A stretch of DNA of 64,000 nucleotides. It comes from Pararhizobium capsulatum DSM 1112 (lineage in GTDB: Bacteria; Pseudomonadota; Alphaproteobacteria; Rhizobiales; Rhizobiaceae). Below are positions 8,635 through 53,948 of the stretch, in pieces. The stretch spans positions 806,001-870,000 of the forward strand of contig NZ_JAUSVF010000002.1 of NCBI RefSeq assembly GCF_030814475.1, written 5' to 3'. How positions within the stretch are numbered: the first letter of the stretch is position 1; each line of letters starts with the position of its first letter. The translations under genes and the position numbers were made by a program. Under the pieces are notes generated by a model, which searched no databases, had not been told where the DNA came from, and was given only the letters and a program-made list of their open reading frames with translations.

Positions 8635-10215
8635 TTACTCCGCGGCTGGCACAATATTGGGGGAAATCAACGTCGCTTCCGGCTCATGGTCCGGTTCGGG
8701 CCCCTGTTTGATCGCCTTGATCATCAGCGTCATCTCGACAACGATCAGGGCGGTATAGAGAACGGCAAAGCCGACAATGGTGAGCAGCACGGTACCGGCG
8801 CCGAGGCTTGAGACAGCCATCGCCGTTGGCAACACCCCTTCGATCACCCAGGGCTGACGGCCGATCTCCGCGACGATCCAACCCGCCTCGATGGCGATCC
8901 ACGGAAGCGGAATGGCAAAAACCGCAATCCGCAGCAGCAAGGGGTAGCGATCAAGATGCCGGCGCGCCGACAGCCAGAAGAACACGGCCGTCAGCAGGAT
9001 GAAGAACATGCCGAGCCCGACCATGATGCGGAACGACCAGAAAAGGGTCGGCACATGGGGGATGGTATCCATCGCCGCCTGCTTGATCTGTGCATCCGTC
9101 GCCTGGCGCGGATCATCGACGTAACGCTTTAAGAGCAGCGCGTAGCCGAGGTCATGACCGAGATCCTCGAACGAGGTTTTGACATCGGCGGCGACTTCGG
9201 TGTTGACCGGTGTTGCGCGGATTTTCGCCAGCGCGTCATAGGCCTTGATGCCGTCGCGGATGCGTTGTTCCGCCTGCAGCTCCAGCTTGTCGATGCCCGG
9301 AATTTCCGTCGTCAGCGAACGGGTGCCGATCAGACCCATGACCCACGGGATATGGACGGCGAAATGGGTTTCGCGTGTTTCCTGATTGGGAAAGCCGAAG
9401 GCCGTAAAGGCAGCGGGCGCCGGCTCGGTTTCCCACATAGCCTCGATGGCGGCGAGCTTCATCTTCTGGTTTTCAGTGGCGAGATAGCCGCTTTCGTCAC
9501 CCAGGACGACGACCGATAGTGCAGAGGCAAGGCCGAAGGAAGCTGCGACCGTCATGGAGCGTTTGGCAAGGTCGATATGCCGGCCCTTCAAAAGATACCA
9601 GGCGGACACGCCGAGCACAAAGATAGACGCACAGACGTAGCCGGCCGAGACCGTGTGTACAAATTTCGCCTGGGCGACGGGATTGAAGACCACGTCATAG
9701 AAGCTGGTGATCTCCATGCGCATCGTCTGCGGATTGAGCGCCGAGCCCACCGGGTTCTGCATCCAGCCATTGGCGACCAGGATCCAGAGCGCCGAGAAAT
9801 TCGAACCAAAGGCCACGCACCAGGTTGCGGTGAGATGGCCGACCTTCGACATCTTGTCCCAGCCGAAGAAGAACAGGCCGACGAAGGTTGCCTCGAGGAA
9901 GAAGGCCATCAGCCCTTCGATCGCCAGCGGCGCCCCGAAGATATCGCCGACATAATAGCTGTAGTAGCTCCAGTTCATGCCGAACTGGAACTCCATGACG
10001 AGGCCGGTGGCCACGCCCAGCACGAAGTTGATGCCGAAGAGCGTACCCCAGAATTTGGTCATCTGGCGCCAGATCTGCCGGCCGGTCATCACATAGGTGG
10101 TTTCCATGATGGCAAGCAGCATGGAAAGCCCAAGTGTCAACGGCACGAAGAGAAAGTGGTAGAGGGCTGTCAGTGCGAACTGAAAGCGAGATAAGGAGAC
10201 GATGTCGAATTCCAT
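8635..10215 (-). CDS. cydA: Cytochrome bd ubiquinol oxidase subunit I
   Basis: Catalytic subunit carrying haems b558, b595 and d and the quinol site. Over 526 residues it shows the family landmarks: the haem-ligand histidine in FALTALYHFLFVPLTLGLS near residue 19, the GRQPW motif (AEIGRQPWVIEGVLPT) that marks true CydA proteins, and the methionine/histidine helices in between. Length matches the E. coli protein (522), consistent with a long quinol loop. It follows cydC by 48 nt and is followed by cydB and cydX, so the oxidase and its assembly exporter appear to form one transcription unit. Confidence 0.97.
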   Translation of the reverse strand: MEFDIVSLSRFQFALTALYHFLFVPLTLGLSMLLAIMETTYVMTGRQIWRQMTKFWGTLFGINFVLGVATGLVMEFQFGMNWSYYSYYVGDIFGAPLAIEGLMAFFLEATFVGLFFFGWDKMSKVGHLTATWCVAFGSNFSALWILVANGWMQNPVGSALNPQTMRMEITSFYDVVFNPVAQAKFVHTVSAGYVCASIFVLGVSAWYLLKGRHIDLAKRSMTVAASFGLASALSVVVLGDESGYLATENQKMKLAAIEAMWETEPAPAAFTAFGFPNQETRETHFAVHIPWVMGLIGTRSLTTEIPGIDKLELQAEQRIRDGIKAYDALAKIRATPVNTEVAADVKTSFEDLGHDLGYALLLKRYVDDPRQATDAQIKQAAMDTIPHVPTLFWSFRIMVGLGMFFILLTAVFFWLSARRHLDRYPLLLRIAVFAIPLPWIAIEAGWIVAEIGRQPWVIEGVLPTAMAVSSLGAGTVLLTIVGFAVLYTALIVVEMTLMIKAIKQGPEPDHEPEATLISPNIVPAAE

Positions 10216-37492: not shown

Positions 37493-38239
37493 TTATTTGG
37501 GTTGCGACGGCGTGAAATTGGCGACGAGAGCGTGACGGTCGCCGGGGTAGATCAGCCGCACATGCGTCACATAGGCGCCATTGCTCCAGGTACGACGCTC
37601 CACGACCAGACAAGCGGTTCCGGCCGCGATACCGAGAGCCGTTGCGATCTGCGCATCCGCCGAGACCGCACGGATTGTATGTTCGGCTGCACTCCATGGC
37701 ACCCGGTTCAGGAGCCAGGGCCCCGGTGCGACATCCTCAAAGCTTTCTTCCGCCGCGTCCGGCACGGCGGAGAGATTGATCAGGCGCTCCTCGACGCAGA
37801 ACGGCCTGTTTGCGGCAAAATGCGTACAGAGTACCTCCAGCACAGGGGCTGCCGTCTCAAGGCTGAGCCGCGATCGATCGTCCGCATTGCTGCGACGCTT
37901 CACCTTCTCGATCAGCTTGTACTCATAGGTGAGGCCAAGAGACTGCACTTCCAGTTTGATATCGCGGATTTCGAGCACCGCGGACTGGGCACGCGGCTGG
38001 GTGACATAGCTTCCGGATTTGCGCCGCCGTTCGATCAGCCCGGTCTTGGCAAGCTGGGTCAACGCCTTGTTCACGGTCATGCGCGAACATTTGTAATGCT
38101 CGGCGAGATCCACCTCGAAGGGAATGCGAAAGCCTGGCTGCCATTCTCCGGAAAGAATACGCTCCTCGATATCGCCGAGAATGCGCTGATGCAGCGACAG
38201 GTCGCTTGCCCCTTCGGCAACCGTTGTCCCCAAATCCAT
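37493..38239 (-). CDS. hutC: GntR-family histidine utilisation repressor HutC
   Basis: A regulator of about 248 residues with an N-terminal winged helix (LHQRILGDIEERILSGEWQPGFRIP, then AEHYKCSRMTVNKALTQLAKTGLI) and a C-terminal UTRA effector domain, ending LVVERRTWSNGAYVTHVRLIYPG. HutC represses hut genes and releases DNA when it binds urocanate. The frame opens at GTG 38260; ATG 38239 is preferred because AGGATGCAGAG precedes it. It lies downstream of hutF on the same strand, separated by a 17-bp-arm inverted repeat. Confidence 0.9.
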   Translation of the reverse strand: MDLGTTVAEGASDLSLHQRILGDIEERILSGEWQPGFRIPFEVDLAEHYKCSRMTVNKALTQLAKTGLIERRRKSGSYVTQPRAQSAVLEIRDIKLEVQSLGLTYEYKLIEKVKRRSNADDRSRLSLETAAPVLEVLCTHFAANRPFCVEERLINLSAVPDAAEESFEDVAPGPWLLNRVPWSAAEHTIRAVSADAQIATALGIAAGTACLVVERRTWSNGAYVTHVRLIYPGDRHALVANFTPSQPK

Positions 38240-38295
38240 CTCTGCATCCTGCGATTTCACGACACGCCCATTCTCATTGAAACCTGATCGCTCCT

Positions 38296-38332
38296 AAAGG
38301 ATGTCTGGTTCAGATTGAACCAGACATCCTTT
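38296..38332. promoter_or_regulatory. Long perfect inverted repeat between hutF and hutC
   Basis: Arms AAAGGATGTCTGGTTCA and TGAACCAGACATCCTTT (17 bp each) flank GAT. It ends in an A-run on one side and a T-run on the other, as for a bidirectional intrinsic terminator, and would end hutF transcripts. An autoregulatory HutC site is the alternative; it shows no obvious match to the palindrome before hutI. Confidence 0.6.
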
Positions 38333-38450
38333 TGATTCTCTTGTTTTCGTTTGTCTTTTCGGGAACACCGGTTCCCACTTTTCTCTGACAACCTCTAGCA
38401 GAAATTTCGGGGCACCGCCCGTGCGAAAAAATTCGTAGCGATCGAGGCGA

Positions 38451-39791
38451 TCATGCCAGCAGATTGGTCATTGCCGAACGGAACCGGGCCGAAATCTCCC
38501 CGCGCTTGCGATGCCGGCCGCCCTCGACCTGTTTCCTGCCGGCCACCCAGACACAATCCGGCTTGGTTCCGTTGGCAAACAGCCAGGAATCGAGCCCTGC
38601 GTCGTCGCGCAGGTCGCCATCCGGCACCTGCAGGCTGACGAAATCCGCCGGACTGCCCACGGCAAGCCCCGTTTTCGCCGCGAGCGCGATACCGCCGCCA
38701 TCCAGGGCGCCGTCGAACAGCGCGCGGCCAGTTGATTGGCCGGGCGCTGCCAGAACGTTGCGCGAGCGGTGCAGCAGGCGCTGCGAATATTCGAGCTGGC
38801 GCAGCTCGTCCGGCAGGCCGATCAGCACGTTGGAATCAGAGCCGATGCCGAACTTGCCGCCCGCCTCCCCGAACAGCACGGCGTTGAATGTGCCGTCACC
38901 AAGATTGGCCTCGGTGATCGGGCAGAGACCGGCAATCGCGCCGCTTTCAGCCATGCGCCGCGTTTCGTCATCGGTCATGTGGGTCGCATGGATCAGGCAC
39001 CAGCGGCTATCGAGGCCAATATTGTCGAGCAGCCATTCTACCGGCCGCACGCCCGACCAGGCGATACAATCCTCGACTTCCTTGACCTGTTCGGCCGCGT
39101 GGATGTGGATCGGCCCGTCCTTTGCCATGGCAACGACATGGGCAAGCTCTTCCGGTGTTACCGCCCGCAGGCTGTGCGGTGCGACGCCGACCCGCCCCTC
39201 GGGCAGATCCTTGACGGCGGCACGGCAGCCCTCGAGCAGACGCTCGAAACTTTCTACGTTGTTGATGAAGCGGCGCTGTCCCTCGTTTGGCGCAGCACCA
39301 CCGAAGGTCGAATGGGCGTAGAAGACGGGAAGCAACGTCAGGCCGATGCCGGTGTCGGAGGCGGCGGACGCAATCCGCTGCCCCATCTCGGCGATATCTG
39401 CGTAGGGGCGACCGTCGATATCGTGGTGCAAATAGTGAAACTCGCCGACGCGGGAAAAGCCCGCTTCCAGCATTTCCATATAAAGCTGGCCGGCAACCGC
39501 CTCGACGTGATCCGGCGTCATCGTCAGCGCGAAGCGGTACATGACATTGCGCCAGCTCCAGAAACTGTCGGTGCCGGGGCCGCGCGTTTCGGCAAGGCCT
39601 GCCATGCCGCGCTGGAAGGCGTGGCTGTGCAGGTTCGGCATGCCGGGGACGAGAATATCGTGACGTTCGTCGCCTGCCTCGGCATCAACGCCAGCGTCCA
39701 GCGAGGCAATCCGCCCACCCGCGATCGTCAACCGTACATCGCTCTGCCATCCCGCCGACGTCAGAGCCGATTTCACATGAATGCTGGTCAA
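38451..39791 (-). CDS. hutF: Formimidoylglutamate deiminase
   Basis: A 446-residue amidohydrolase converting N-formimino-L-glutamate to N-formyl-L-glutamate and ammonia, the step that defines the five-enzyme histidine pathway. It shows the metal-binding HSHAFQRG (after PGMPNL), the histidine in HIHAAEQ, HATHMTDDE and the aspartate in GSDSNVLI. Its presence with hutG (deformylase) shows the organism makes formylglutamate rather than formamide plus glutamate. It is divergent from hutI, with about 100 bp between the starts. Confidence 0.94.
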   Translation of the reverse strand: MTSIHVKSALTSAGWQSDVRLTIAGGRIASLDAGVDAEAGDERHDILVPGMPNLHSHAFQRGMAGLAETRGPGTDSFWSWRNVMYRFALTMTPDHVEAVAGQLYMEMLEAGFSRVGEFHYLHHDIDGRPYADIAEMGQRIASAASDTGIGLTLLPVFYAHSTFGGAAPNEGQRRFINNVESFERLLEGCRAAVKDLPEGRVGVAPHSLRAVTPEELAHVVAMAKDGPIHIHAAEQVKEVEDCIAWSGVRPVEWLLDNIGLDSRWCLIHATHMTDDETRRMAESGAIAGLCPITEANLGDGTFNAVLFGEAGGKFGIGSDSNVLIGLPDELRQLEYSQRLLHRSRNVLAAPGQSTGRALFDGALDGGGIALAAKTGLAVGSPADFVSLQVPDGDLRDDAGLDSWLFANGTKPDCVWVAGRKQVEGGRHRKRGEISARFRSAMTNLLA

Positions 39792-39890: not shown

Positions 39891-41141
39891 ATGTCTTCCG
39901 CAAAATCTGCACCCGACGAGAGCCGACCGCCCGCTTGCGACCGCCTCTGGAAAAACGCCCGACTCGCGACCTTGAACCCCGCCTTGCCGGGTCTTGGCCT
40001 TGTGGAAAACGGCGTCATTGCCGTTCAGGACGGACGCATTCTTTTTGCCGGCGACGCGACGGACCTGCCCTTTCCCATCAAAGACGCAGGCGAGATCATC
40101 GATTGCGAAGGCCGTTGGATTACCCCAGGCCTGATCGACTGCCACACTCATCTCGTCCATGCCGGCGACCGCGCCAACGAATTCGAAATGCGCCTTGCCG
40201 GCGCCACCTATGAGGAAGTCGCCCGTGCCGGCGGCGGCATCGTGTCCTCCGTTCGTTCGCTTCGTAAGGTAAGCGAAGACGACTTGGTGAAGCAGACTCT
40301 CCCCCGGTTGGACGCGCTGATCGCCGAAGGCGTCACCACAGTCGAGATCAAGTCCGGCTATGGCCTCGACCTCGAAAACGAAGCCAAGACCCTGCGCGCC
40401 GCCCGCCGTCTCGGCGAAGAGCGCGATGTCGCCATCCGCACGACCTTCCTCGGCGCCCATGCATTGCCGCCGGAATTCAAGGGCAACCAGGCCGGTTACG
40501 TCGCCAAGATTATCGACGAAATGATGCCGGCCATCGAGGCCGAAGGGCTCGCCGATGCCGTCGACGGCTTTTGCGAGGGCATTGCCTTTTCGACCGACGA
40601 GATGCGGCAGGTGTTCGATGCGGCGAAGGCTCACGGCCTGCCGGTGAAACTGCATGCCGATCAACTTTCCAATCTGCATGGCGCCGCACTTGCCGCCGAA
40701 TACGGTGCGCTCTCGGCCGATCATCTCGAATATACCGATGAAGCCGGCGCGGAAGCGATGGCAAAAAGCGGAACCGTGGCTGTCATCCTGCCCGGCGCCT
40801 TCTATTTCATTCGCGAGACGAAGAAGCCGCCGGTCAATCTTTTCCGCAAGGCAGGCGTCGCTATGGCGATCGCGACCGATAGCAACCCCGGCACCTCGCC
40901 GCTGACATCGCTGTTGCTGACCATGAACATGGCAGCCACACTGTTTGGCATGACGGTCGCCGAATGCATCGCCGGTACGACGCGCGAAGCCGCCCGCGCG
41001 CTCGGTCTCGTCGACGAGGTGGGGACGCTCGAACCCGGCAAATGGGCCGATTTCGCCATCTGGAATATCGATCGGCCCGCCGAACTTGTCTACCGCATGG
41101 GGTTCAACCCGCTCCATGCCCGCATCCGCAACGGACACTGA
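39891..41141 (+). CDS. hutI: Imidazolonepropionase
   Basis: A 416-residue amidohydrolase that opens 4-imidazolone-5-propionate to formimino-glutamate. Family motifs: [25 protein letters not shown] near residue 85 (metal ligands and the substrate-binding RxxE), [22 protein letters not shown] and [10 protein letters not shown]. Length is normal (about 405-420). First gene of the plus-strand hut run, followed by hutH after 51 nt. AAGGAAAGG precedes the ATG. Confidence 0.96.
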
Positions 41142-41192
41142 CATTTCAAGCTGCGTGAGCCCCGCTCCGCGCATCGCATCTGAGGAGTTGCC

Positions 41193-42728
41193 ATGACCCT
41201 TGTTCTTCAGCCGGGCTCTGTCCCGCTCTCGACCCTCGAAACCATCTACTGGACAGGCGAACCCGCCCGTCTCGATCCCTCGTTCGACAAGGGCATCGAG
41301 AAGGCGGCTGCCCGCATCGCCGAGATCGCAGCCGGCAATGCGCCGGTCTACGGCATCAACACCGGCTTCGGCAAACTCGCCTCGATCAAGATCGATGCCG
41401 CCGATGTCGCCACCCTGCAGCGCAACCTGATCCTCTCCCATTGCTGCGGCGTCGGCCAGCCGCTCGCCGAAAACATCGTGCGCCTAATCATGGCGCTGAA
41501 GCTCGTCTCGCTCGGGCGCGGCGCATCGGGCGTCAGGCTCGAACTCGTCCGGCTGATCGAAGGTATGCTCGCCAAGGGTGTCATCCCGGTCATTCCGGAA
41601 AAAGGCTCCGTCGGCGCCTCCGGCGACCTCGCGCCGCTTGCTCATATGGCCGCTGTGATGATGGGTGAAGGCGAAGCATTTTTCGACGGCGAACAGCTCG
41701 ATGGCCGGACCGCGCTCGAACGCGCCGGTCTCGTACCGGTCGTTCTCGCCGCCAAGGAAGGTCTGGCACTCATCAATGGGACACAGGTCTCCACTGCGCT
41801 CGCGCTTGCCGGGCTCTTCCGCGCCCACCGCGCCGCCCAATCGGCCCTGATCACCGGCGCGCTGTCCACCGATGCGGCCATGGGCTCGTCGGCGCCGTTC
41901 CATCCGGATATCCACACGCTGCGCGGCCACAAGGGCCAGATCGATGCCGCCGCCGCCCTGCGTGGCCTGCTCAAGGGCTCGGTGATCCGCGAAAGCCATA
42001 TCGAGGGCGATGAGCGCGTTCAAGACCCCTATTGCATCCGCTGCCAGCCGCAGGTCGATGGCGCCTGCCTCGATCTCCTGCGCTCGGTTGCCCGTACGCT
42101 GGAAATCGAAGCCAACGCAGTCACTGACAATCCGCTGGTGCTATCGGACAATTCCGTCGTCTCCGGCGGCAATTTCCACGCCGAGCCGGTGGCCTTCGCC
42201 GCCGACCAGATCGCTCTTGCCATCTGCGAGATCGGCGCGATTTCCCAGCGCCGCATCGCTCTGCTGGTCGATCCGGCCCTCTCCTATGGTCTGCCGGCCT
42301 TTCTCGCAAAAAAACCGGGTCTCAATTCCGGCCTAATGATCGCCGAAGTGACCTCGGCGGCGCTGATGTCGGAAAACAAGCAGATGTCCCATCCGGCATC
42401 GGTCGATTCCACCCCGACCTCGGCCAATCAGGAAGACCACGTCTCCATGGCCTGCCACGGCGCCCGCCGCCTGCTCCAGATGACTGACAACCTGTTCGCC
42501 ATCATCGGCATAGAGGCCCTGACGGCAGCCCAGGGCATCGATTTCCGTGCACCGCTCGTCACCAGCCCGGAACTCACAGCTGCCATATCAGCGATCCGCA
42601 AGGTCGTGCCCACGCTGGAAATCGACCGCTACATGGCAACCGACCTGAAGGCCGCAAGCGAGCTTATCGCTTCGGGCGGGCTGAATACTGCCGTATCGTC
42701 GGGCATCCTGCCGGTTCTGGAGGCTTGA
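41193..42728 (+). CDS. hutH: Histidine ammonia-lyase
   Basis: Releases ammonia from L-histidine to give urocanate. The 511-residue protein has the self-cyclising Ala-Ser-Gly at residues 142-144 in [14 protein letters not shown], which forms the MIO cofactor, the catalytic tyrosine in [11 protein letters not shown] (Y53), VTDNPLV, and [11 protein letters not shown] at the C-terminal side. Numbering and length agree with the Pseudomonas putida enzyme. It is a complete functional copy, unlike the second HAL-family gene at 47972-49465. Its stop overlaps the start of hutG. Confidence 0.97.
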
Positions 42729-43549
42729 TGATGGCCGTCTTCGAAACAAGACAAGGTTCATCGCCCGTTATCCTCGGCTTCCCCCATACTGGAACCGACG
42801 TCCCCGCCGCCATGTGGGAACGGCTGAACGACAATGGCCGCATCCTTGCCGACACCGACTGGCATATCCATCACCTCTACGATGGCCTGCTGCCGGACGT
42901 GACGACGGTGCGCGCCACCTTCCATCGCTATGTCATCGACGCCAATCGCGATCCGGAAGGCGTCAGCCTCTATCCCGGCCAGAACACCACCGGCCTTATT
43001 CCGGGCACGAATTTCGACGGCGTCTCGATCTGGGCGGATGGTGAAGAGCCGACCGAGGCGGATATCGCCGCCCGGCTTGCCGATTTTTACGCGCCCTACC
43101 ATGCGGCCCTTGCCGCGGAAATCGAACGGGTCAAGGCAATCCACGGCATCGCCGTGCTCTATGACTGCCATTCGATCCGCTCCGACATCCCGTTCCTGTT
43201 CGAAGGCACCCTGCCGGATTTCAACATCGGCACGGATAGCGGCAAGACCTGCGATCCAGCGATCCAGAACGCCGCCGTGGATGTGGCCCTCTATGCGGAC
43301 GGCTACACCAGCATTCTCAATGGCCGTTTCAAGGGCGGCTGGACGACGCGCCACTACGGTCGACCGGAAACCGGCGTCCACGCCATCCAGATGGAGCTGG
43401 CCCAATCCAGCCATCTGACAACCGAGGCCCCGCCCTTCGCGTATGACGCGACAAAGGCGGCCAAGCTTCGCACTCACCTCAAGGACATTCTCACGCGCAT
43501 CGAAGATGCGGCGCTGACACTGGCAAAGCAAACAAGGGGAAGCAAATGA
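42728..43549 (+). CDS. hutG: N-formylglutamate deformylase (formylglutamate amidohydrolase)
   Basis: A 273-residue zinc hydrolase that splits N-formyl-L-glutamate into formate and glutamate, the last step of the pathway. It matches the FGase family with [13 protein letters not shown] near the N-terminus, [20 protein letters not shown] and the [18 protein letters not shown] core. Start candidates are TTG 42725, ATG 42728 and ATG 42731; GGAGG at 42719-42723 favours 42728 or 42731. The gene overlaps hutH upstream and hutU downstream (ATGA), so the hutHGU part is translationally coupled. Confidence 0.95.
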
Positions 43550-45219
43550 CCAATCCTCGTCACAACATCCGCGATGTCCGCGCTGCGCGCGGCACACAAC
43601 TGACAGCGAAATCCTGGATGACCGAAGCGCCGCTTCGCATGCTGATGAACAACCTCGACCCTGAGGTCGCAGAAAACCCGCACGAACTGGTCGTCTACGG
43701 CGGCATCGGCCGTGCCGCCCGCACCTGGGCGGATTTCGACAAGATCGTCGAGACCTTGCGCGATCTCAACGAAGACGAGACGCTGATGGTGCAGTCGGGC
43801 AAGCCGGTTGGCGTGTTCCGCACCCACAAGGACGCACCGCGCGTACTGATCGCCAACTCCAACCTCGTGCCCCACTGGGCGACCTGGGATCATTTCAACG
43901 AGCTGGATAAGAAGGGTCTTGCCATGTACGGCCAGATGACGGCCGGCTCGTGGATCTATATCGGCACGCAGGGCATCGTCCAGGGCACTTACGAGACCTT
44001 TGTCGAGGCCGGACGCCAGCATTATGGCGACAATCTCAGGGGCAAATGGGTGCTGACCGGCGGTCTCGGCGGCATGGGCGGCGCACAGCCGCTGGCGGCC
44101 GTCATGGCCGGCGCCTGCTGCCTTGCGGTCGAATGCAACCCGGATTCGATCGATTTCCGCCTGCGCACCCGCTATGTCGACGAAAAGGCCGAAACGCTGG
44201 ACGAAGCGATGGAGATGATCGCCCGCTGGACCGCTGCTGGCGAAGCGAAATCCGTTGGCCTGCTTGGCAATGCCGCCGAAATCCTGCCGGAAATGGTCCG
44301 CCGCGGCATCCGCCCCGACATGGTCACCGACCAGACCTCGGCCCATGACCCGGTCAACGGCTACCTGCCGAAGGGCTGGACGATGGCGCAGTGGAAGGAA
44401 AAGCGCGAGAGCGATCCGAAGGCCGTCGAAAAGGCCGCCCGCGCCTCCATGCGCGAGCACGTCGAAGCGATGATCGCCTTTCAGGACATGGGCGTGCCAA
44501 CCTTCGACTATGGCAACAACATCCGCCAGGTCGCCAAGGACGAAGGCCTCGAAAACGCCTTCGCCTTCCCGGGCTTTGTTCCCGCCTATATCCGCCCGCT
44601 GTTCTGCCGCGGCATCGGCCCGTTCCGTTGGGCGGCTCTCTCCGGCGATCCGGAGGATATCCGCAAGACCGACGCCAAGGTCAAGGAACTGACACCCGGC
44701 AACAAGCACCTGCACAACTGGCTCGACATGGCTGCCGAGCGCATCGCGTTCCAGGGCCTGCCGGCGCGCATTTGCTGGGTTGGTCTCGGTGACCGCCACC
44801 GCCTCGGTCTCGCCTTCAACGAAATGGTCCGGACCGGCGAGCTTTCCGCCCCCGTCGTCATCGGCCGTGACCATCTGGACAGTGGCTCGGTCGCCTCGCC
44901 GAACCGCGAAACGGAAGCGATGAAGGATGGCTCGGATGCCGTGTCCGACTGGCCGCTCTTGAACGCCCTGCTCAATACTGCATCGGGCGCCACCTGGGTG
45001 TCGCTGCACCATGGCGGCGGCGTCGGCATGGGCTTCTCCCAGCACTCGGGCATCGTCATCTGCGCCGACGGCACCGACGACGCGGCCCGTCGTCTGGAGC
45101 GCGTTCTCTGGAACGACCCGGCAACCGGCGTCATGCGCCATGCCGATGCCGGTTATGACATCGCCATCGATTGCGCCAGGGAAAAGGGTCTCCGGTTGCC
45201 TGGGATTCTTGGGAATTGA
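43546..45219 (+). CDS. hutU: Urocanate hydratase
   Basis: A 557-residue NAD+-dependent urocanase that converts urocanate to imidazolonepropionate. Signatures include the N-terminal [30 protein letters not shown], the glycine-rich NAD region [13 protein letters not shown] and the C-terminal active-site sequence [16 protein letters not shown], with the conserved cysteine in [12 protein letters not shown]. Length equals the family norm. The ATG overlaps the hutG stop by 4 nt. A strong hairpin follows the stop. Confidence 0.97.
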
Positions 45220-45293: not shown

Positions 45294-45860
45294 GTGAAGG
45301 TATTGCGCAACAGCGATTATCGCCGCATGCCGTGGAAGAATGGCGGCGGAGAAACCACCGAGATCGCCGTGTACCCACCGGATGCCGATCTCGCCGGCTT
45401 CGGCTGGCGCATCAGTATGGCGACGGTGGCGAACGACGGGCCGTTTTCGGCTTTCCCCGGTATCGACCGCACCCTCTCGATCCTGAGCGGCGAAGGTGTG
45501 GAACTCGACATCGCGGGTCGTGCACCCACCATGCTCACGCAGTCTTCCGCACCCCTCGCCTTCCCCGCTGATGCGGCCACCTCTGCGCGATTGGTGTCGG
45601 GCACCATCACGGATCTGAACGTTATGACACGGCGCGGGCAATGGTCGCATAGGGTCGAACGCCACCAATTTGAAGGCGAACACCGGCTCGATGCTGAAGG
45701 CGGCGTCACGATGCTGCTTTCGCTGGGAAACCTGCGGATCGACAGTGCCGGTCACGCCGAAGAACTCGGCCGGCTCGATTGCGCCTTTATCGACAGGATC
45801 GTGTCGATCACGTCGGATATGCCGACTGAAGCTTACATCATCCGTATCGTCGAAGGTTGA
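45294..45860 (+). CDS. hutD: HutD family protein
   Basis: A 188-residue cupin-fold protein of the HutD/Ves family, seen by the N-terminal YRRMPWKNGGGETTEI motif, the GWRISMATVANDGPFSAFPGIDRTL block and a jelly-roll-like remainder. HutD proteins occur in hut operons and have been proposed to limit the rate of histidine breakdown by binding formylglutamate or urocanate; the mechanism is not settled. AGGAGG precedes ATG 45294. It ends the plus-strand hut run, and the next gene converges on it with a 6-nt gap. Confidence 0.9.
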   Translation: MKVLRNSDYRRMPWKNGGGETTEIAVYPPDADLAGFGWRISMATVANDGPFSAFPGIDRTLSILSGEGVELDIAGRAPTMLTQSSAPLAFPADAATSARLVSGTITDLNVMTRRGQWSHRVERHQFEGEHRLDAEGGVTMLLSLGNLRIDSAGHAEELGRLDCAFIDRIVSITSDMPTEAYIIRIVEG

Positions 45861-45866
45861 TAGCCA

Positions 45867-46796
45867 TCATTTGCGGGCAAGATGGCCGAGCACATGGCAG
45901 ATCAGCCGGCCGACGACGGTCGCCGTAATGTCGTTGACATCGTTCGCCGGCTGGAACTCGACGATCGAGAAGCCGGCGAGACGGCGTCCGGCCATTCCTG
46001 CTGCGATGAGATCGGTCACTTCCTCCAGCCATAGACCACCGGGCGACAGCGCGTTGATACCCGGGCAGATCGACGGATCGAGCGCGTCGACGTCGATATG
46101 GATCAGCAGCGCACCGTCACGCGGGATGGCATCGGCAATCCCAGCCACACCGCTTGCCCTGACCTGCCGCACCGTCACCAGCCGCGAGCCCCAGGCCCGC
46201 GCCGCCTCGACCTCTTCGCGCCGCGCACTCCCCACCGCACGGATACCGACCTGCGTCATCGAGCGCACGAACGGCAGTTCGGACGCGCGACGCATGGTGC
46301 TGGAATAGCCGAGCGGCTCGTCGCCGATCCGGTCGCGCCAGTCGATATGGGCGTCGATCTGCAGGATATGCAGCGCCTCGACATCGCCAAGGCCCGCCAT
46401 GAAGGGAATGGCCGCCGAATCGTCGCCACCGATCAGGATCGGCACGCCTCCTGCCGCCCGGATATCGCGCGTTACCGCCTCGATGGCCGAGCGGTTGCCC
46501 GCATTGTCGCCGAATGACGTCGCAACATTGCCGAGGTCGAGAACCTCGAAGCCACCATCATTGAGCAACGGCCCGTCGAAATCGAAATCCCAATGGTCAA
46601 TTTGGACGGAAGCCGCCGTGATCGCACGACGCACGGCATCGGGAGCCGCGACGTCAGATGGAATATCGACGGCATTAGGATAGGCCGTTCCATGCACCGC
46701 GCCGAAAAGGACGACCGATCCGGCGGTGGCCTTGGTACCCGACCCTATGCCGAGAAAAGTTTCCATTGCAGGTCGAAGCTTGTAAGCCATGCTCAT
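45867..46796 (-). CDS. Ureohydrolase (agmatinase/arginase family) with altered metal motif
   Basis: A 309-residue manganese-type ureohydrolase by fold. Recognised motifs: GGDDS at 123-127, DAHIDWRD at 148-155 and HIDVDALDPSICPG further on. The first motif normally reads GGDHS, where the histidine binds Mn-A; here codon 126 (46419-46421) is Asp. Other ligands are present. Such enzymes cleave guanidino compounds to urea and an amine; the substrate here is unknown. ATG 46796 overlaps the upstream flavoprotein stop by 4 nt. A longer open frame to 46934 lies inside that gene. It ends the minus-strand operon that begins with the amino-acid importer at 52749. Confidence 0.8.
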   Translation of the reverse strand: MSMAYKLRPAMETFLGIGSGTKATAGSVVLFGAVHGTAYPNAVDIPSDVAAPDAVRRAITAASVQIDHWDFDFDGPLLNDGGFEVLDLGNVATSFGDNAGNRSAIEAVTRDIRAAGGVPILIGGDDSAAIPFMAGLGDVEALHILQIDAHIDWRDRIGDEPLGYSSTMRRASELPFVRSMTQVGIRAVGSARREEVEAARAWGSRLVTVRQVRASGVAGIADAIPRDGALLIHIDVDALDPSICPGINALSPGGLWLEEVTDLIAAGMAGRRLAGFSIVEFQPANDVNDITATVVGRLICHVLGHLARK

Positions 46797-47950
46797 GCCG
46801 CCCGCGCTGCGAGAAACCGGTTCATCGCCGCGAAGGAAAAAGCGCCGATCGGCAGATGCGTGCCGCCTTCCAAAGCCAGATCCGCAAGGATTTCGCCGAC
46901 GACACTGGTGAACTTGAAGCCGTGGCCGGAGCATGGCGAGGCCACGACGACGCGGTTATCACCCGGCAACAGATCGAGCAGGAAATCCTCGCTCGGCAGC
47001 ATGGTATAGCGGCAGGTCGTGGAGCGCACGCGAAGGCCCGCCGCCGCGGGTAGCCGGCGCTTGATGAAGGTGTCTAACAGGTCGGTATCGCGGTCGTTGA
47101 CGTCAGGATTGGGTTGGTTCGGATCGATCGGCTCGCGGAAATGCGCATGACGGCCAACCTTGACGCCATCGACGCCGATCGCCGGAAAACCGAAGAACGA
47201 ACCATTGTCGCCCTCGTCGCGGATGAACACCGGCATGCGCTGCGGCGTGGTAACGAAACCATCTGTCGGCTTATACCATGAAACGACTTGCTTGATCGGC
47301 ACGGCATGTCCGCGCAGATCGGGCACCAGCTCACCGATCCACGAGCCGGTCGCGACGATGACCTTTGCGGCGCTGTAGCGTCCTGTATTCGAGGTGATGA
47401 TGACCCCGCCCGCGCCTGTTTCGATTTCCGTTACCTTTTCGCCGAAGTGCAGGGCAGCACCATCACTGGCTGCCAGTTTAAGATGCCCCATGACGGCCGC
47501 TTCCGGTCGCAGATAGCCACCCTGCGGATCAAGCAGGGCCACCTCGTCCGCATCCAGCGAAAATACCGGAAAACGGCGGCGCATCTCATCCGGCGAAAGG
47601 GTTTCCAGCGGCAGATTGTGGAGCGCACAGCTTTTCAGCGTGCCGCTGACGATCTTGCTGTCCGGCTTGCCGATCTGCAGGACGCCGGTGATCGTCAGGA
47701 TATCCTCGCGCAACCGCGCCTCCAGCGCCCGCCAGTTCTCGTAGGCCCGCTGGAGCAGCGGCACATAGGATGGGTCTTCGAAATATCCGAGGCGGATCAG
47801 TCGGCTGTCGCCGTGCGACGAGCTCAGGGCATGGGCCGGATAGTAGACATCGATGCCGATGACCTTGACGCCCCGGGCAGCCAGATGCGCCAGGGCGGCA
47901 CTGCCCATGGCACCGAGACCAACAACGGCGACGTCGAAATGGGCAGTCAT
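46793..47950 (-). CDS. solA: FAD-dependent N-methyl amino acid oxidase (N-methyl-L-tryptophan / sarcosine oxidase type)
   Basis: A 385-residue flavoprotein of the monomeric sarcosine oxidase / SolA family. It starts with the Rossmann motif VAVVGLGAMGSAALAHLA, has SSSHGDSRLIR near residue 45, the conserved TTCRYTMLPSEDF whose cysteine is the usual covalent FAD attachment point, and SGHGFKFTSVVGE at the C-terminal side. These enzymes demethylate N-methyl amino acids to the amino acid, formaldehyde and hydrogen peroxide, or oxidise cyclic imino acids. The actual substrate is unknown. It is located between the HAL-like and ureohydrolase genes. Confidence 0.85.
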   Translation of the reverse strand: MTAHFDVAVVGLGAMGSAALAHLAARGVKVIGIDVYYPAHALSSSHGDSRLIRLGYFEDPSYVPLLQRAYENWRALEARLREDILTITGVLQIGKPDSKIVSGTLKSCALHNLPLETLSPDEMRRRFPVFSLDADEVALLDPQGGYLRPEAAVMGHLKLAASDGAALHFGEKVTEIETGAGGVIITSNTGRYSAAKVIVATGSWIGELVPDLRGHAVPIKQVVSWYKPTDGFVTTPQRMPVFIRDEGDNGSFFGFPAIGVDGVKVGRHAHFREPIDPNQPNPDVNDRDTDLLDTFIKRRLPAAAGLRVRSTTCRYTMLPSEDFLLDLLPGDNRVVVASPCSGHGFKFTSVVGEILADLALEGGTHLPIGAFSFAAMNRFLAARAA

Positions 47951-47971: not shown

Positions 47972-49465
47972 TCACAGGCCGGGCGGCGGGGATGCACGCA
48001 GGAGATCGCGCGCCTTTTCAAGATCCCAGCCGAGCGGCCGGTCGTCTGCGTAGGTTGGCACAGTGGCGCGGATATGGCGGTAGAGCAGATCGGTGCCGAC
48101 AGCCCTGGATGCGACACCGACCTTGAAGTCCTGCGCCTGGGCGGCTGCGGCAAACTCAATACCGAGAATTTGCTCCGCATTGTCGATGACGGCCAGAAGC
48201 TTGTTGGCCGCCGCCGTCGGATGCGCCAGAAAATCCTCCTGCAGTGCTGAGGTGACGCCGCCGTCAAGGCTTGCTGGTGTACCAAGCCGCCGGTTTTCCG
48301 CAGCAAGCGCGGCTGCCGTGTATTGCGCGATCATAAAACCGGAACCCGCACCCGGGTCGGCCGCGAGAAACGACGGAAGATTACTTACCAGAGGGTTGAC
48401 GAGGCGATCGATGCGTCGCTCGCTCATCATCGAAATCTGCGCAATCGCTACGGCAAGGCTATCAAGCGCTTGCGCGAGCGCAGGGGCCACGGCATGGGCC
48501 TCGGAGGAGACGACCGGCGCTTCCGGTGTGCCGGAAACGGCCGGATTGTCGGTAACGGAGGCAAGCTCGCGATCGACGACCGCGCCGGCGAAACCCAGCA
48601 CGTCCCAGCCCGCGCCATGGGCGTGTGGAACCGAGCGAAGGCTCAGCGCATCCTGCGTGCGCGCACCTTTTGCGGCCGCGATCAGGCGGCTGCCAGCCAG
48701 ACGGTCGCGCAGGCTCCGGCCAACCTTTTGGATACCGTCCGACTTGCGCATCGCAAGGACCGCTTCGTCGAAGGCGGCGGCCTGGCAACCGAGCGCCTCG
48801 ATCGTCAGCGTGGCGATAGCATCCGCCCAATCGAGAAACCGCTTCGCCCGCGAAAGTGCCACGGAGCCGAGGCCCGTGGCGCAGGCCGTGCCGTTGACGA
48901 GGCTGAGGCCTTCCTTGGCCTGCAGAACCAACGGCTCGACGCCGATCGCGGTTAGCGCCTCTGCGCCCGTCACCGACTTTCCCTTCAGCCGAGCCGTGCC
49001 TTCGCCAATCAATACCAACGCGATATGGGCGTTATGGCTAAGATAGCCCGCCGATCCCTTGGAGGGGACATCGGGAATGCAGTCTTCGCGGAGAAACAGT
49101 TGCAACCGCGAGACGATCTCCAGCCGTACGCCCGAGTGACCGTGGGAGAAATTGCCGATTTGGGCCGCGATGATGGCACGGACTTCACGCACATCCAGAA
49201 TCCGACCAACACCGCAGGCATGGGACAGGATGATGTTGCGCGACAGCCGGCTTTGCGACGGACGATCGACGACCGTATCGGCCAGCGCCCCGACGCCGGT
49301 GTTGACTCCATAGGCGCGAACACCGCTCTCGACAATCGCCGAGACGATGCGGCTTGCCGTTTCGACACGCGCTACGGCAACATCGGAAAGGGAGAGGGCG
49401 GCACCCTCGGCAACGGCTGCCACGGCGCGCCAGTCGAGCGTCGTCTCAAGCTTGATGGAATGCAC
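47972..49465 (-). CDS. HAL-family (aromatic amino acid lyase-like) protein lacking the MIO-forming triad
   Basis: A 497-residue protein that aligns along its length with histidine ammonia-lyase: AYGVNTGVGAL near residue 51, ILSHACGVG, HGHSGVRLEIV, the AKEGLSLVNGT helix and VTDNPAVSG. At the cofactor site, where hutH in this window has [14 protein letters not shown], it reads GSAGYLSHNAH (137-147): Ala-Ser-Gly is missing and three residues are deleted. The C-terminal QEDHVSM of HutH is QEDFLAH here. It therefore cannot make MIO by the known route, and deamination is doubtful. I recall similar paralogues in other hut or amino-acid loci, so it may be a defined subfamily with a different activity. 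Part of the ABC-importer operon. Confidence 0.82.
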   Translation of the reverse strand: MHSIKLETTLDWRAVAAVAEGAALSLSDVAVARVETASRIVSAIVESGVRAYGVNTGVGALADTVVDRPSQSRLSRNIILSHACGVGRILDVREVRAIIAAQIGNFSHGHSGVRLEIVSRLQLFLREDCIPDVPSKGSAGYLSHNAHIALVLIGEGTARLKGKSVTGAEALTAIGVEPLVLQAKEGLSLVNGTACATGLGSVALSRAKRFLDWADAIATLTIEALGCQAAAFDEAVLAMRKSDGIQKVGRSLRDRLAGSRLIAAAKGARTQDALSLRSVPHAHGAGWDVLGFAGAVVDRELASVTDNPAVSGTPEAPVVSSEAHAVAPALAQALDSLAVAIAQISMMSERRIDRLVNPLVSNLPSFLAADPGAGSGFMIAQYTAAALAAENRRLGTPASLDGGVTSALQEDFLAHPTAAANKLLAVIDNAEQILGIEFAAAAQAQDFKVGVASRAVGTDLLYRHIRATVPTYADDRPLGWDLEKARDLLRASPPPGL

Positions 49466-49467
49466 GA

Positions 49468-50289
49468 TCAGCCTCCGAAATTGCCGATGAACTGACGGAA
49501 GCTGGGCGAACCGCCGGAGCCGAACAGCTCGTCGGGTGCGCCGTCGCTGTCGATTTCGCCGGATTTCATGAAGATCACCCGGTTGGAGACATTGCGGGCA
49601 AAGCTCATTTCGTGAGTGACGACCAGCATGGTCATGCCTTCTTCCGCCAGCGAGCGCATGACGCGCAGCACTTCACCGACCAGTTCCGGATCGAGCGCAG
49701 ACGTGGGTTCATCGAACAGCATGACCTTCGGCTTCATTGCCAGCGACCGGGCGATCGCCGCCCGCTGCTGCTGGCCGCCGGAAAGATGGGCGGGATAGGC
49801 ATGGCGCTTTTCGGCAATGCCGACCTTTTCGAGGAGCGCTTCTGCTTCCGCGATACTTTCCGCCCGCGGCCGCTTCAACACGTGCACTGGCCCCTCGATG
49901 ACGTTTTCGAGGATGGTCATGTGAGACCAGAGATTGAACGACTGGAACACCATGCCGAGCTCGGAGCGGATGCGATCGACCTGCTTACGATTGGCGGGAA
50001 CATTCTTGCCGCCGCGCTGCTGCATCTGGATCAGCTCGCCATCGACGGAGATCTCGCCGTGATCGGCGATCTCCAGTAGGTTGATGCAGCGCAGGAAGGT
50101 CGACTTGCCCGAGCCACTGGCGCCAAGCAGCGAGATGACGTCGCCATCGCGGGCCTCGAGCGAGATGCCGCGCAGCACTTCATGGGTGCCAAAGCTCTTG
50201 CGGATGTTGCGGACGGAAAGCCGAGTCGTGCCTGCCATGGTCGTTCCAGTCTGGTTGAGGGTCGTTTGATTGAGTGGCGCAATGATCAT
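49468..50289 (-). CDS. Polar amino acid ABC transporter ATP-binding protein
   Basis: A HisP/GlnQ-type ATPase with Walker [10 protein letters not shown], signature [15 protein letters not shown], Walker [13 protein letters not shown] and [14 protein letters not shown] 50289 overlaps the stop of the preceding permease by 4 nt and gives 273 residues; ATG 50238 (256 residues) fits the family length better but has a weaker ribosome-binding site. The overlap makes 50289 plausible. The gene ends 2 bp before the HAL-like start. Couples ATP hydrolysis to the importer formed by the two permeases upstream. Confidence 0.92.
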
Positions 50290-50996
50290 CGTTGCGGTAC
50301 CGGGAAAAGCGGTGCCGCGCGGCGGTGCGGGGTCAGCTTGTATTCAAGAAACGCCATGGCCTGCAGGATTATGAAATTGAGAATGAGGTAGATGGCCGCA
50401 GCGCAGAGGAAGACTTCCATCGTGCGGTAGGTCTGCGAGATCAGCCGTTGGGCAACGCCGGTTACTTCCCAGACCGTGACGAGGCTGGCAAGGGCGGTGG
50501 ATTTCACCATCATCACCACCTCGGTCGAATAGGCCGGCAGCGCATGGCGAAAAGCGATCGGGGCAAGGATGCGCCGGGTGAGCAGGAAGCCCGACATGCC
50601 AATCGAACGCGCCGCCTCGATCTCCTTTGCCGGAATGGCCCGCAGGCCAAAGCGGAAGATTTCCGCCGTATAGCCGGCGGTGCAAAGCGCCAGCGACAGG
50701 ACGGCACAGACGAACGGTTCGCGCAGCGCCGGCCACAGGAAGCTGTAGCGGATGAAGCCGAACTGGCCGAGGCCGTAGAAGATCAGGAACATCTGGATCA
50801 AAAGCGGCGAGCCGCGAAAGACGAAGATGTATCCCTTAGCAAAATTGCGGGCGATGGCATTGCCGCTCACTCGCATCCAGACGATAACGAGCGCAAGCAA
50901 TCCGCCGAAGACGATAGCCAGCGCAAACAGCGCCAGCGTCATCGGCAGCGCGGCCAACAGCGTTTTCATGGTCTCGAACATGAAGGCCATATCCAT
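50286..50996 (-). CDS. Polar amino acid ABC transporter permease (HisM-type)
   Basis: A 236-residue inner-membrane permease of the His/Glu/Gln/Arg family, with five hydrophobic helices, [19 protein letters not shown] and the coupling motif [30 protein letters not shown] near residue 140. It forms a heterodimer with the permease encoded upstream. A 30-bp gap separates the two. The substrate is likely a basic or polar amino acid, in keeping with the LAO/HisJ-type binding protein. Confidence 0.9.
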
Positions 50997-51026: not shown

Positions 51027-51749
51027 TCAGGCCTGGCCGAGACTGGTCGGCATGCTGCGGTTGGCGCGTTTTTCGGCGCTGGTGAAAAGCCGGTCGGAGA
51101 AACTTGTCAGGATCAGATAGAGGCAGCCGCCGACGATGAAGAAGACGAAATGCTGTCGTGTGGAGCCTGCCGCGACCTGGCTGGTGCGCATCAGGTCGGC
51201 AAGACCGGTGACCGATACCAGCGCCGAGTCCTTGAGGCTGAGCTGCCAGACATTGCCGATACCCGGGATCGCAAAGCGGAAGACCTGCGGGCCGATGATG
51301 CGGCGCAAGCGCAAGCCCCGGTTCATGCCGATCGCCTGTGCTGCTTCCAGCTCGCCCTTGGGAATGGCGAGAAACGCCCCGCGAAACACTTCCGCCTGAT
51401 AGGCCCCCGAGATGATGCCGACGGCAAGCGAACCGGCCACGAAGGAAGGAAGGCCGAGAAAGCCCTCGTACCCCATCGCCTTGCCGATGGCTGTCACCGC
51501 ACTCGATCCGCCGAAATAGACGAGATAGATGATCAGCAGTTCAGGAACACCCCGGAACACCGTGGTGTAGATCCCGCCGAGAGTTTTTAATGTCTTGCTT
51601 GCGGATAGCTTTGCACTTGCGACAAGAGCACCGATAATGGCGCCGATCAGAAGCGCCACCGCGGTAACGCACAGCGTCATCAATGCCGCCACGAGAAGCA
51701 GCCCGCCCCATCCGGTGGGACCAAATCCGATCAATTGAAATAGTGCCAT
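51027..51749 (-). CDS. Polar amino acid ABC transporter permease (HisQ-type)
   Basis: A 240-residue permease with five to six helices, the TVFRGVPELLIIYLVYFGG motif before the third helix and the coupling loop ELEAAQAIGMNRGLRLRRIIGPQVFRFAIPGIGN. Together with the next permease it forms the channel. It lies 160 bp downstream of the binding-protein gene, across a stem-loop, and its N-terminus (MALFQLIGFGPTGWGGLLLVAAL) is typical of HisQ/OccQ-like subunits of rhizobial opine and basic amino acid importers. Confidence 0.9.
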   Translation of the reverse strand: MALFQLIGFGPTGWGGLLLVAALMTLCVTAVALLIGAIIGALVASAKLSASKTLKTLGGIYTTVFRGVPELLIIYLVYFGGSSAVTAIGKAMGYEGFLGLPSFVAGSLAVGIISGAYQAEVFRGAFLAIPKGELEAAQAIGMNRGLRLRRIIGPQVFRFAIPGIGNVWQLSLKDSALVSVTGLADLMRTSQVAAGSTRQHFVFFIVGGCLYLILTSFSDRLFTSAEKRANRSMPTSLGQA

Positions 51750-51909: not shown

Positions 51910-52749
51910 TCAGGGGGTTACGTCGGTCTTGAACCACTTCATCGACAGCGTCTTGATGGTGCCGTCGGCAAGGGCTGCCTCGATAGCCTTGTTGAACATA
52001 TCGCGCAGGTCGGTGTCTGCCTGGCGGATGCCGAGGCCTTCGCCGGACCCGAAGATCGTGCCGCCGATTTCAGGGCCGGTAAATCCGAGTGTGCCATTGG
52101 CTTTCTCGAACGCGGAGATCAGGTAGACGGCATCGTCGAACACGAGGTCGATACGGCCGCTTTCGAGATCGAGGTCGCGTTCCGCGCCGGTCTTGTATTC
52201 GCGCACCGTGGCGATATCGCCGAAGTTGTCATAGATGAACTTCGAATAAACGGTCGCTGCCTGGATGCCGATCGTCTTGCCGGCAAAGGCTTCCTTCATG
52301 GCATCGATTTCCTTGACGCCAGTCGCACCCGGATCGAGCTTGATGACCGTGCCGGTGCCGGCCGCATTGGCGAGCGGGCTATCCTTCAGCGTCGCGAAAG
52401 CAGCGTGGGTATGGGCGTAAGGAATGGTGAAGTCGATGATCTGCTTGCGTTCATCGGTGATCGACAGCGCGTCCATGATCACGTCGAACTTGCCGGCATT
52501 GAGCGCCGGAATCATGCCGTCCCAATCGGACGCGACGAGCGTGCACTCGACTTTCATGTGATCGCAGAGATATTTGGCAAGCTCAGGCTCGAAGCCGCCG
52601 AGCGTGCCGTCCGGATTGGTCAGGTTCCAGGGCGCATAGGCACCCTCGAGCGTGATCGTCACGGTCTTCCAGTCCTTGGCCTGCGCCAGGGGAGCAGACA
52701 AGGTTGCGAAAGCGACGGCACCCGCCATCAGGAATTTGGAAAGGGTCAT
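51910..52749 (-). CDS. Polar amino acid ABC transporter substrate-binding protein (LAO/HisJ type)
   Basis: A 279-residue periplasmic receptor with signal peptide MTLSKFLMAGAVAFATLSAP, cleavage near AQA-KD. The mature start VTITLEGAYAPWNLTNPDGTLGGFEPELA, the DWDGMIPALNAGKFDVIMDALSITDERKQ block and the C-terminal MFNKAIEAALADGTIKTLSMKWF are diagnostic for the lysine-arginine-ornithine/histidine-binding group. It is the promoter-proximal gene of the operon that continues with two permeases, the ATPase, the HAL-like protein, the flavoprotein and the ureohydrolase. The ligand may be a methylated or guanidino amino acid, judged only by the enzymes. Confidence 0.9.
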   Translation of the reverse strand: MTLSKFLMAGAVAFATLSAPLAQAKDWKTVTITLEGAYAPWNLTNPDGTLGGFEPELAKYLCDHMKVECTLVASDWDGMIPALNAGKFDVIMDALSITDERKQIIDFTIPYAHTHAAFATLKDSPLANAAGTGTVIKLDPGATGVKEIDAMKEAFAGKTIGIQAATVYSKFIYDNFGDIATVREYKTGAERDLDLESGRIDLVFDDAVYLISAFEKANGTLGFTGPEIGGTIFGSGEGLGIRQADTDLRDMFNKAIEAALADGTIKTLSMKWFKTDVTP

Positions 52750-52854
52750 GTTCTCGTCCTCTGAGGTTTATCTTCAACAACGTCCACCGATCTTGCGCCG
52801 GCTTTACAAAGGGCCTGATGGATGCGGATAAATGATCCTGAACATCCATGTTGT

Positions 52855-52868
52855 ATATGGTACCATAT
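52855..52868. promoter_or_regulatory. Palindromic operator candidate in front of the second GntR gene
   Basis: ATATGGTACCATAT is perfectly palindromic and lies in the 191-bp gap between the importer operon (start 52749, minus) and the GntR gene (start 52941, plus). The extended form TTGTATATGG (52851-52860) recurs at 53720-53729, just past the GntR stop. Confidence 0.6.
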
Positions 52869-52940
52869 GCATATTTTTATGCTATGCAAGAGGTCGGTCA
52901 CATTTGGATGCAAATTTATATTCGCCCAAGGAATGAGCAG

Positions 52941-53708
52941 ATGAAGCGCAACAACGAACCGAATACTCAACTGAAGTGGGACACCGCCGACAATGACGGC
53001 GCCCCCCTCTATGCCGGCGTCAAGCAGATGATCCTCGACCGCATACAGAGCGGCGAATGGCCCCCGAAACACAGGGTTCCCTCGGAGAACGAACTGGTGG
53101 CGGAACTTGGGGTCAGCAAGATGACCGCCAACCGGGCGCTCCGCGAGCTGGCGAGCGAAGGCGAACTTGTCCGCATCCAGGGCGTCGGTTCCTTTGTGGC
53201 CGAGCGGAAGGGCTATTCCGAACTGTTCGAAGTGCGCAACATTGCCGAGGAAATCAACGAGCGAGGCCATACGCATCAGGCCTCCGTGATCGTTCTGGCA
53301 AACGAGAAAGCCTCCCCGGATGTCGCCGACGCCCTTGGACTGCAGATCGGCGCAGACGTGTTTCATTCGCTGATCGTACACAGCGAAAACGGCGTTCCCG
53401 TCCAGATTGAGGATCGTTTTGTGAACCCCGAGGCTGCGCCCGGTTACCTCGATCAGGATTTCACCACGCTGACGCCCAACGCCTATCTAACGGCGGAGGC
53501 GCCTTTGAGCGGATCCGAACATATCGTCGAAGCTGCAATGCCGCAGCCTTGGGAATGCAAGCTGCTGGTAATCCTGCGCACTGAGCCGTGCCTGCTGATC
53601 CGCCGGCGCACATGGTCGTCAAAACGCGCCGTTTCCTTCGCGCGTCTCGTTTATCCTGGTAACCGCTATCGACTTGAATCGCGCAGCGGAGTGATGTCTG
53701 AGGACTGA
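52941..53708 (+). CDS. GntR-family regulator with UTRA domain (HutC-like), probable repressor of the importer operon
   Basis: A 255-residue regulator: winged helix at the N-terminus (PLYAGVKQMILDRIQSGEW, AELGVSKMTANRALRELASEGEL) and a UTRA ligand domain ending LLIRRRTWSSKRAVSFARLVYPGNR. It is about the same length as HutC at 37493-38239 and clearly a paralogue, so the effector may resemble urocanate. The frame is open from 52848, across the palindrome; ATG 52941 follows AAGGAATGAGCAG and is preferred. Transcribed divergently from the importer/HAL-like/flavoprotein/ureohydrolase operon. Confidence 0.86.
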   Translation: MKRNNEPNTQLKWDTADNDGAPLYAGVKQMILDRIQSGEWPPKHRVPSENELVAELGVSKMTANRALRELASEGELVRIQGVGSFVAERKGYSELFEVRNIAEEINERGHTHQASVIVLANEKASPDVADALGLQIGADVFHSLIVHSENGVPVQIEDRFVNPEAAPGYLDQDFTTLTPNAYLTAEAPLSGSEHIVEAAMPQPWECKLLVILRTEPCLLIRRRTWSSKRAVSFARLVYPGNRYRLESRSGVMSED

Positions 53709-53948
53709 ATAACGATTGGTTGTATATGGAACTAAACGATTAGTTTTCCGCAACCCTTCATCTTGCCATAGCGCCCATAGCGCGCAGCAAGACCACAAAC
53801 TAAGCTCGCCCGATTCCGAGATCAAGCTCCGAATCAACGCGAACATCGACGGCCGGGCTCTGGTGCAAAAACTCGTCGCGCGCCTAATTTGAGCGGCTCG
53901 ACGGCAATCGGGTTTCGGGTAATTAAATCCCTCCCAGCAACCCGCATG

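Follow-up and report, generated by a model that had tools for sequence, protein, structure and literature searches.

What can a protein of the histidine ammonia-lyase (HAL) family do once it has lost the residues from which its MIO cofactor forms? The question is raised by a gene in a 64,000-nucleotide stretch of Pararhizobium capsulatum DSM 1112 DNA, the whole of which is referred to here as the window (Table 1). The gene has a GTG start and an open frame on the minus strand; its plus-strand reading is broken. Residues 11-466 of the product match PF00221 at 458.7 bits (the Pfam cut-off is 27.3), and the best solved relatives are HALs, at 292.6 bits for 7tqr and 259.1 for the Pseudomonas putida enzyme 1b8f, with ergothionase at 164.4. 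On the NCBIfam hutH equivalog model, the protein falls below the cut-off (452.3 vs. 539.15 bits). Its predicted structure has a mean pLDDT of 91 and a TM-score of 0.91 to 1b8f, i.e., a HAL-like fold. A preliminary description of this DNA had claimed that the Ala-Ser-Gly triad is replaced by GSAGYLSHNAH, making the protein three residues shorter there, and that is what is seen on comparison with 1b8f; the YGVNTG, VTDNP, and QEDF motifs it listed are likewise all present. QEDF, however, is not a hallmark, because among 74 aligned rows of proteins sharing the altered loop (the GYLxH clade), the variable column holds His in 37, Phe in 34, Ile in two, and Met in one.

Table 1. Features of the window around the lyase gene, in base-pair order.
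Feature	Position	Strand	Remarks
Second HutC (37493-38260) and hutF (38451-39791)	37493..39791	-	Both above NCBIfam cut-offs
hut operon	39891..45219	+	hutI 39891-41141, hutH, N-formylglutamate deformylase 42725-43549, hutU 43546-45219; each above its NCBIfam cut-off
Canonical HutH with Ala-Ser-Gly	41193..42728	+	732 vs. 539 bits; ~5 kb from the lyase
hutD/Ves-like gene	45294..45860	+	By likeness; Ves model 73 bits vs. cut-off of 292
Arginase-family ureohydrolase	45867..46790	-	Below agmatinase and HutG cut-offs; start picked by comparison with L005
FAD oxidase, N-methyl-L-tryptophan oxidase (SolA) model	46793..47950	-	21 bp downstream of the lyase; 422 vs. 257 bits
MIO-less HAL-family lyase (GYLxH clade)	47972..49465	-	497 aa; PF00221
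Residues 137-147, GSAGYLSHNAH, in place of the Ala-Ser-Gly-bearing HAL loop	49025..49057	-	From alignment; exact coordinates
ABC transporter ATPase	49468..50289	-	Best model histidine HisP, below its cut-off; 2 bp gap to the lyase
ABC permease	50286..50996	-	By likeness and place
ABC permease	51027..51749	-	By likeness and place
Family-3 (polar amino acid type) substrate-binding protein	51910..52749	-	Relative of >60% identity in 59/80 loci
Palindromic candidate operator GTTGTATATGGTACCATATG	52850..52869		Recurs in related loci
HutC-family repressor	52942..53708	+	Divergent from the operon; 300 vs. 220 bits; longest ORF from 52848, start picked by comparison with L005

The 74-row alignment took every sixth of 240 protein matches and left out ergothionase-like rows as well as L141-L143, which are not HutH. 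The triad occurs in none of the 74 rows but in all 28 HutH rows, and the earlier claim that MIO cannot form here from Ala-Ser-Gly is thus borne out across the clade. Ala-Ser-Gly-D145, Y280, and F329 (HAL numbering) are gone together in all 74, whereas the positions of Y53, H83, N195, Q277, R283, and E414 are kept in every row and that of M382 in 73; the 28 HutH rows keep the complete set. P. putida HutH and the window lyase have in common the fold, the imidazole- and carboxylate-side residues, and a hut setting, but differ in that the former has Ala-Ser-Gly, D145, Y280, and F329, all of which the lyase lacks. The lost positions are presumably the parts that build the MIO cofactor in HAL; the kept ones we take, from work on HAL, to be catalytic, with Y53 as the base. 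Because the latter are fixed in the 74 rows, decay of the gene is unlikely, as had been supposed. Of the two options then left, a new activity is a better fit than a role in binding or regulation. A catalytically dead paralog serving, e.g., histidine sensing or HutH assembly would agree with the loss of the cofactor, but the constancy of the presumed catalytic residues, including the base Y53, in 74/74 rows counts against it, and we consider it quite improbable.

The nearest precedent for the lyase is ergothionase, which is MIO-less and has the same fold. To act as a leaving group, a primary amine requires the MIO electrophile, whereas trimethylammonium does not; an enzyme for the latter could dispense with the triad, D145, Y280, and F329 alike. 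We judge it slightly better than an even chance (about 0.52) that the gene encodes an MIO-independent HAL-fold lyase that takes trimethylamine off hercynine (histidine betaine, N-alpha-trimethyl-L-histidine) and feeds urocanate to the hut pathway. We infer the substrate, leaving group, and product from the kept imidazole and carboxylate residues together with a changed amine side, from the occurrence of more than one kind of betaine-type transporter, and from nearby hut operons, with an ordinary hutU in the three cases tested. A transporter would bring the betaine into the cell, where the lyase would remove trimethylamine from it, yielding urocanate for the hut enzymes. Within the active site, the carboxylate would be bound by R277 and N191 (HAL R283 and N195) and the imidazole by H82, M378, and E410 (HAL H83, M382, and E414), with Y52 (HAL Y53) as the acceptor of the beta proton; we infer that Y141, H144, L274, and Y382, which are fixed in the clade, sit in that part of the pocket neighboring the lost triad, D145, Y280, and F329. 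The adjacent SolA-like oxidase might, at a guess, turn mono- and dimethylhistidine back to histidine. Ergothionase releases trimethylamine from a histidine betaine without MIO (PMC13405746), hercynine is made from histidine during ergothioneine synthesis (PMC7653990), and histidine betaine is reported from a cyanobacterium (PMC3826126); a literature search for bacterial hercynine breakdown found nothing, either for or against.

The altered loop is widespread. Over 200 rows (the query, 119 homologous proteins, and 80 loci), G137, S138, G140, Y141, L142, H144, A146, and H147 are each common to at least 99%. When 398 genomes of the phylum were scanned, 22 besides the window's own had a match of at least 44% identity; the loop was read in 29 matches (lower matches being read in part), with GS[VA]GY[LI]xH in all of these 22 and Ala-Ser-Gly in all seven read at 40% identity or less. 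The motif was found in rhizobia, Pseudomonas, and further proteobacterial families. With the Pseudomonas-group member L126 as the query, GSVGYLTHMAH was present in 120/120 homologs among the matches listed; those named are Pseudomonas or Phytopseudomonas, including P. fluorescens, P. protegens, and P. chlororaphis, and the annotations are histidine ammonia-lyase or HAL/PAL/TAL family ammonia-lyase. L126 itself (8654-10162) scores 544.9 bits on the NCBIfam hutH equivalog model, above the cut-off of 539.15, yet the MIO triad is absent; the model thus takes in part of the clade, and automatic annotation can misname GYLxH proteins. The preliminary description had raised the idea that these proteins form one clade, and a tree of 70 rows with the loop columns removed agrees, in that 34 GYLxH rows lie on one side of a branch with an SH-aLRT of 99. 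On another branch (92) are 31 Ala-Ser-Gly rows, and five ergothionase-like rows fall outside both, although their order is unsure because of long branches; the tree was built by a quick method without bootstrap, and two incomplete sequences (L012_12600 and L073_2) were left out. By these alignments, the GYLxH proteins form a single clade whose scope is far beyond one gene. A further MIO-less loop variant outside strict GYLxH, GSVGYLI[AT]TSH, was seen in PF00221 proteins of five rhizobial genomes (L194, L218, L219, L220, and L221).

One member of the clade probably already has a name. The review PMC8871633 describes five genes between hutU and hutH, namely a permease, an OpuAC binding protein, a permease, an ATPase, and a second histidase. 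In L125, where each gene was checked, a cytosine/purine-type permease, an OpuAC protein, a permease, an ATPase, and a GYLxH lyase are followed by an Ala-Ser-Gly hutH, and in L126, L128, and L134 the lyase likewise lies between hutXWV and hutH (from tblastn and the OpuAC positions). Because the L125 gene order is that described for P. fluorescens, HutH1 of P. fluorescens SBW25 is very probably a member of the clade. According to the same review, hutH1 of P. fluorescens is not needed for growth on histidine, a point in favor of a dead paralog, and HutXWV is involved in taking up histidine, a weak point in the argument from transporters to a betaine. The HutH1-type protein L126 is ~48% identical to the window lyase and keeps QEDH; unlike in the window, no SolA-like oxidase was found alongside the Pseudomonas HutH1-type loci, and the gene order of the window is different.

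Within the window, the lyase comes fifth in a tight operon that runs substrate-binding protein, two permeases, ATPase, lyase, SolA-like oxidase, ureohydrolase, with the HutC gene divergent. Across 80 related loci, a transporter of the polar amino acid type is present in 59, a HutC more than 50% identical in 67, and other hut genes in 29; the SolA-like oxidase lies directly downstream of the lyase in 38 and the ureohydrolase is present in seven. GTTGTATATGG or its complement was found in 47 of the 80, and in 46 it lies between locus positions 1500 and 5000; in the window, it occurs at 52850 and again at 53719. The window contains two HutC-type regulators, one (37493-38260) by hutF and the hut operon and the other (52942-53708) by the lyase operon. 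The window shares its polar amino acid type of transporter with the 59 near loci and with six of 20 distant neighborhoods, which counts against the hercynine reading. These 59 loci and the 38 with the oxidase would suit a different substrate, a histidine carrying another N-substituent (one or two methyl groups, or an opine-like carboxyalkyl group), with the SolA-like oxidase as a partner, and the retention of the imidazole- and carboxylate-side residues would fit as well. However, a secondary or tertiary amine is, by general chemistry, a poorer leaving group without MIO, and tblastn found the oxidase in just one of the 20 distant neighborhoods (L139) and in none of the Agrobacterium-type loci, making such a substrate rather unlikely.

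Other transporters stand beside the lyase elsewhere. An OpuAC-type binding protein precedes it instead in 10 Agrobacterium-type loci; in L061, the one checked with Pfam, OpuAC-type ABC genes are followed by HutC and then the lyase. A fatty-acid-desaturase-family gene, possibly an oxygenase for methylamines, and a phosphonate-binding-like gene lie near the lyase in nine Agrobacterium-type loci (L054, 9512-11316), and a pair similar by annotation occurs in Rhizobium sp. ACO-34A (L088, 8052-9923). In seven Mesorhizobium and Aminobacter loci, neither transporter type was found, and tblastn found no hut gene in these seven or in L135 and L138, which counts against a hercynine substrate. Among the 20 distant neighborhoods, hut catabolic genes lie within ~10 kb of the lyase in 16. 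The gene preceding the lyase is part of a polar amino acid ABC system in six, part of an OpuAC ABC system in 10, of the BCCT type in two (directly before the lyase in L136 and L137), and none of these in two. A transporter gene directly preceding the lyase in 18 of 20, and the existence of copies with no other hut genes nearby, are further arguments against a dead paralog. L136 (1-10037) holds both MIO-less kinds, a GYLxH lyase behind BCCT and, next to an OpuAC transporter, one that is ergothionase-like (GSLGAADLAQLAQ).

Overall, at least 12 of 23 lyase-bearing genomes have an OpuAC or BCCT gene no more than 10 kb from the lyase; in control genomes without the lyase, OpuAC is that close to a PF00221 gene in 2/37 (G351 and G294) and BCCT in 0/37. 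The difference between 12/23 and 2/37 has a Fisher p of 5e-5 with kinship ignored, and eight of the 12 positives are from one family (f44). The controls were hand-picked from scan genomes with lower matches only; their best PF00221 loop, read in 30 of the 37, is Ala-Ser-Gly in all 30. Given the two controls with OpuAC near hutH and the part of HutXWV in histidine uptake, OpuAC need not mean a betaine. All 22 other lyase genomes have a second PF00221 gene (at least 596 bits in 21), a point in favor of the hercynine reading, and in the 13 neighborhoods fetched from them in which a hutH loop was read it is always Ala-Ser-Gly; the lyase is, therefore, no replacement for HutH there. The hutU genes of the window, L125, and L136 pass the hutU cut-off and fall below both thiourocanate hydratase cut-offs.

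Could the clade instead be a second kind of ergothionase, acting on ergothioneine or ergothioneine sulfonate? The HAL fold and the lack of MIO are common to both (Treponema denticola ergothionase, PDB 6s7j/6s7q), and the betaine-type transporters near the lyase also speak for such a substrate. The T. denticola loop, however, is one residue shorter than that of HAL, whereas the clade loop is three shorter; the N195 and M382 positions hold different residues in this ergothionase and in the clade, and the ergothionase has retained Phe at F329. Its K383 (our own count), a lysine we take to be essential, is Tyr (Tyr382) in 34/34 clade rows but Lys in four of the five ergothionase-like rows, and the 70-row loop-free tree did not group the GYLxH rows with it. 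The lyase would work most like ergothionase, but it fails tested features of both HutH and ergothionase.

Gene context also points elsewhere. In the P. capsulatum genome, ergothioneine-utilization genes adjoin not the GYLxH lyase but L004, its fourth PF00221 gene, which has retained the lysine and, among solved structures, matches ergothionase best; L176 (C1:3198000-3213000 of that genome, 3261-8559) is an apparent ergothioneine-utilization cluster comprising L004 and ErtD, ErtE, and thiohydantoin desulfurase, the last three above NCBIfam cut-offs. In 10/10 further rhizobial genomes, an above-cut-off ErtD likewise has, no more than ~300 bp away, a PF00221 gene other than this lyase, scoring 252-277 bits; the three of these neighbors that were read are 82% identical to L004 and have GSIGCADIG, as L004 does. 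In another set, of 30 clade genomes, ErtD passed its cut-off in only four: the P. capsulatum genome, two Rhizobium (with a 281-bit neighbor), and one Agrobacterium vitis, where the neighbor has an Ala-Ser-Gly loop. Agrobacterium is where an ergothioneine substrate has most in its favor. Ergothionase activity is reported for A. radiobacter (PMC7653990), and a 2022 paper on ergothioneine sulfonate catabolism is cited for that species; eight of nine Agrobacterium-type genomes have in PF00221, at E 1e-20, only an Ala-Ser-Gly HutH and the GYLxH lyase, i.e., no other MIO-less gene. These observations count against the hercynine reading, and in Agrobacterium the lyase might act on ergothioneine compounds. 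For the clade as a whole, we nonetheless think such a substrate unlikely, given the lost lysine, the placing and scarcity of ErtD, and the ordinary urocanase encoded by the three neighboring hutU genes tested.

Two more clusters were noted along the way. L177 (C5:80000-96000 of the P. capsulatum genome, 5516-14017) contains an Ala-Ser-Gly HutH2, a urocanase, ErtE, ErtD, and an amidohydrolase; its urocanase scores about the same on the hutU and S-methyl thiourocanate hydratase models, below the cut-off of the latter, and the cluster perhaps serves a modified ergothioneine. L089 (3922-14607, a plasmid of R. leguminosarum CB782) encodes an MIO-less lyase (GSIGAADLAPLAH, the same loop as in L232-L234), with neighbors annotated as histidine utilization repressor, glycine/betaine transporter, CoA transferase, and dehydratase; it is a candidate lyase for some other betaine.

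Returning to hercynine, the wider form of our proposal, at odds just short of even, is that a widespread proteobacterial clade including Pseudomonas HutH1 would be a cofactor-free hercynine trimethylamine-lyase, one that lost MIO separately from ergothionase and offers a second entry to the hut pathway. If this is true, the second histidase gene of Pseudomonas, dispensable in histidine use, would acquire a function, and a common misannotation as histidine ammonia-lyase would be corrected. The clade would be another case of an ammonia-lyase dropping MIO once the leaving group was already good. It would also suggest that rhizobia and pseudomonads use histidine betaine as a nutrient and that bacteria produce trimethylamine from it.
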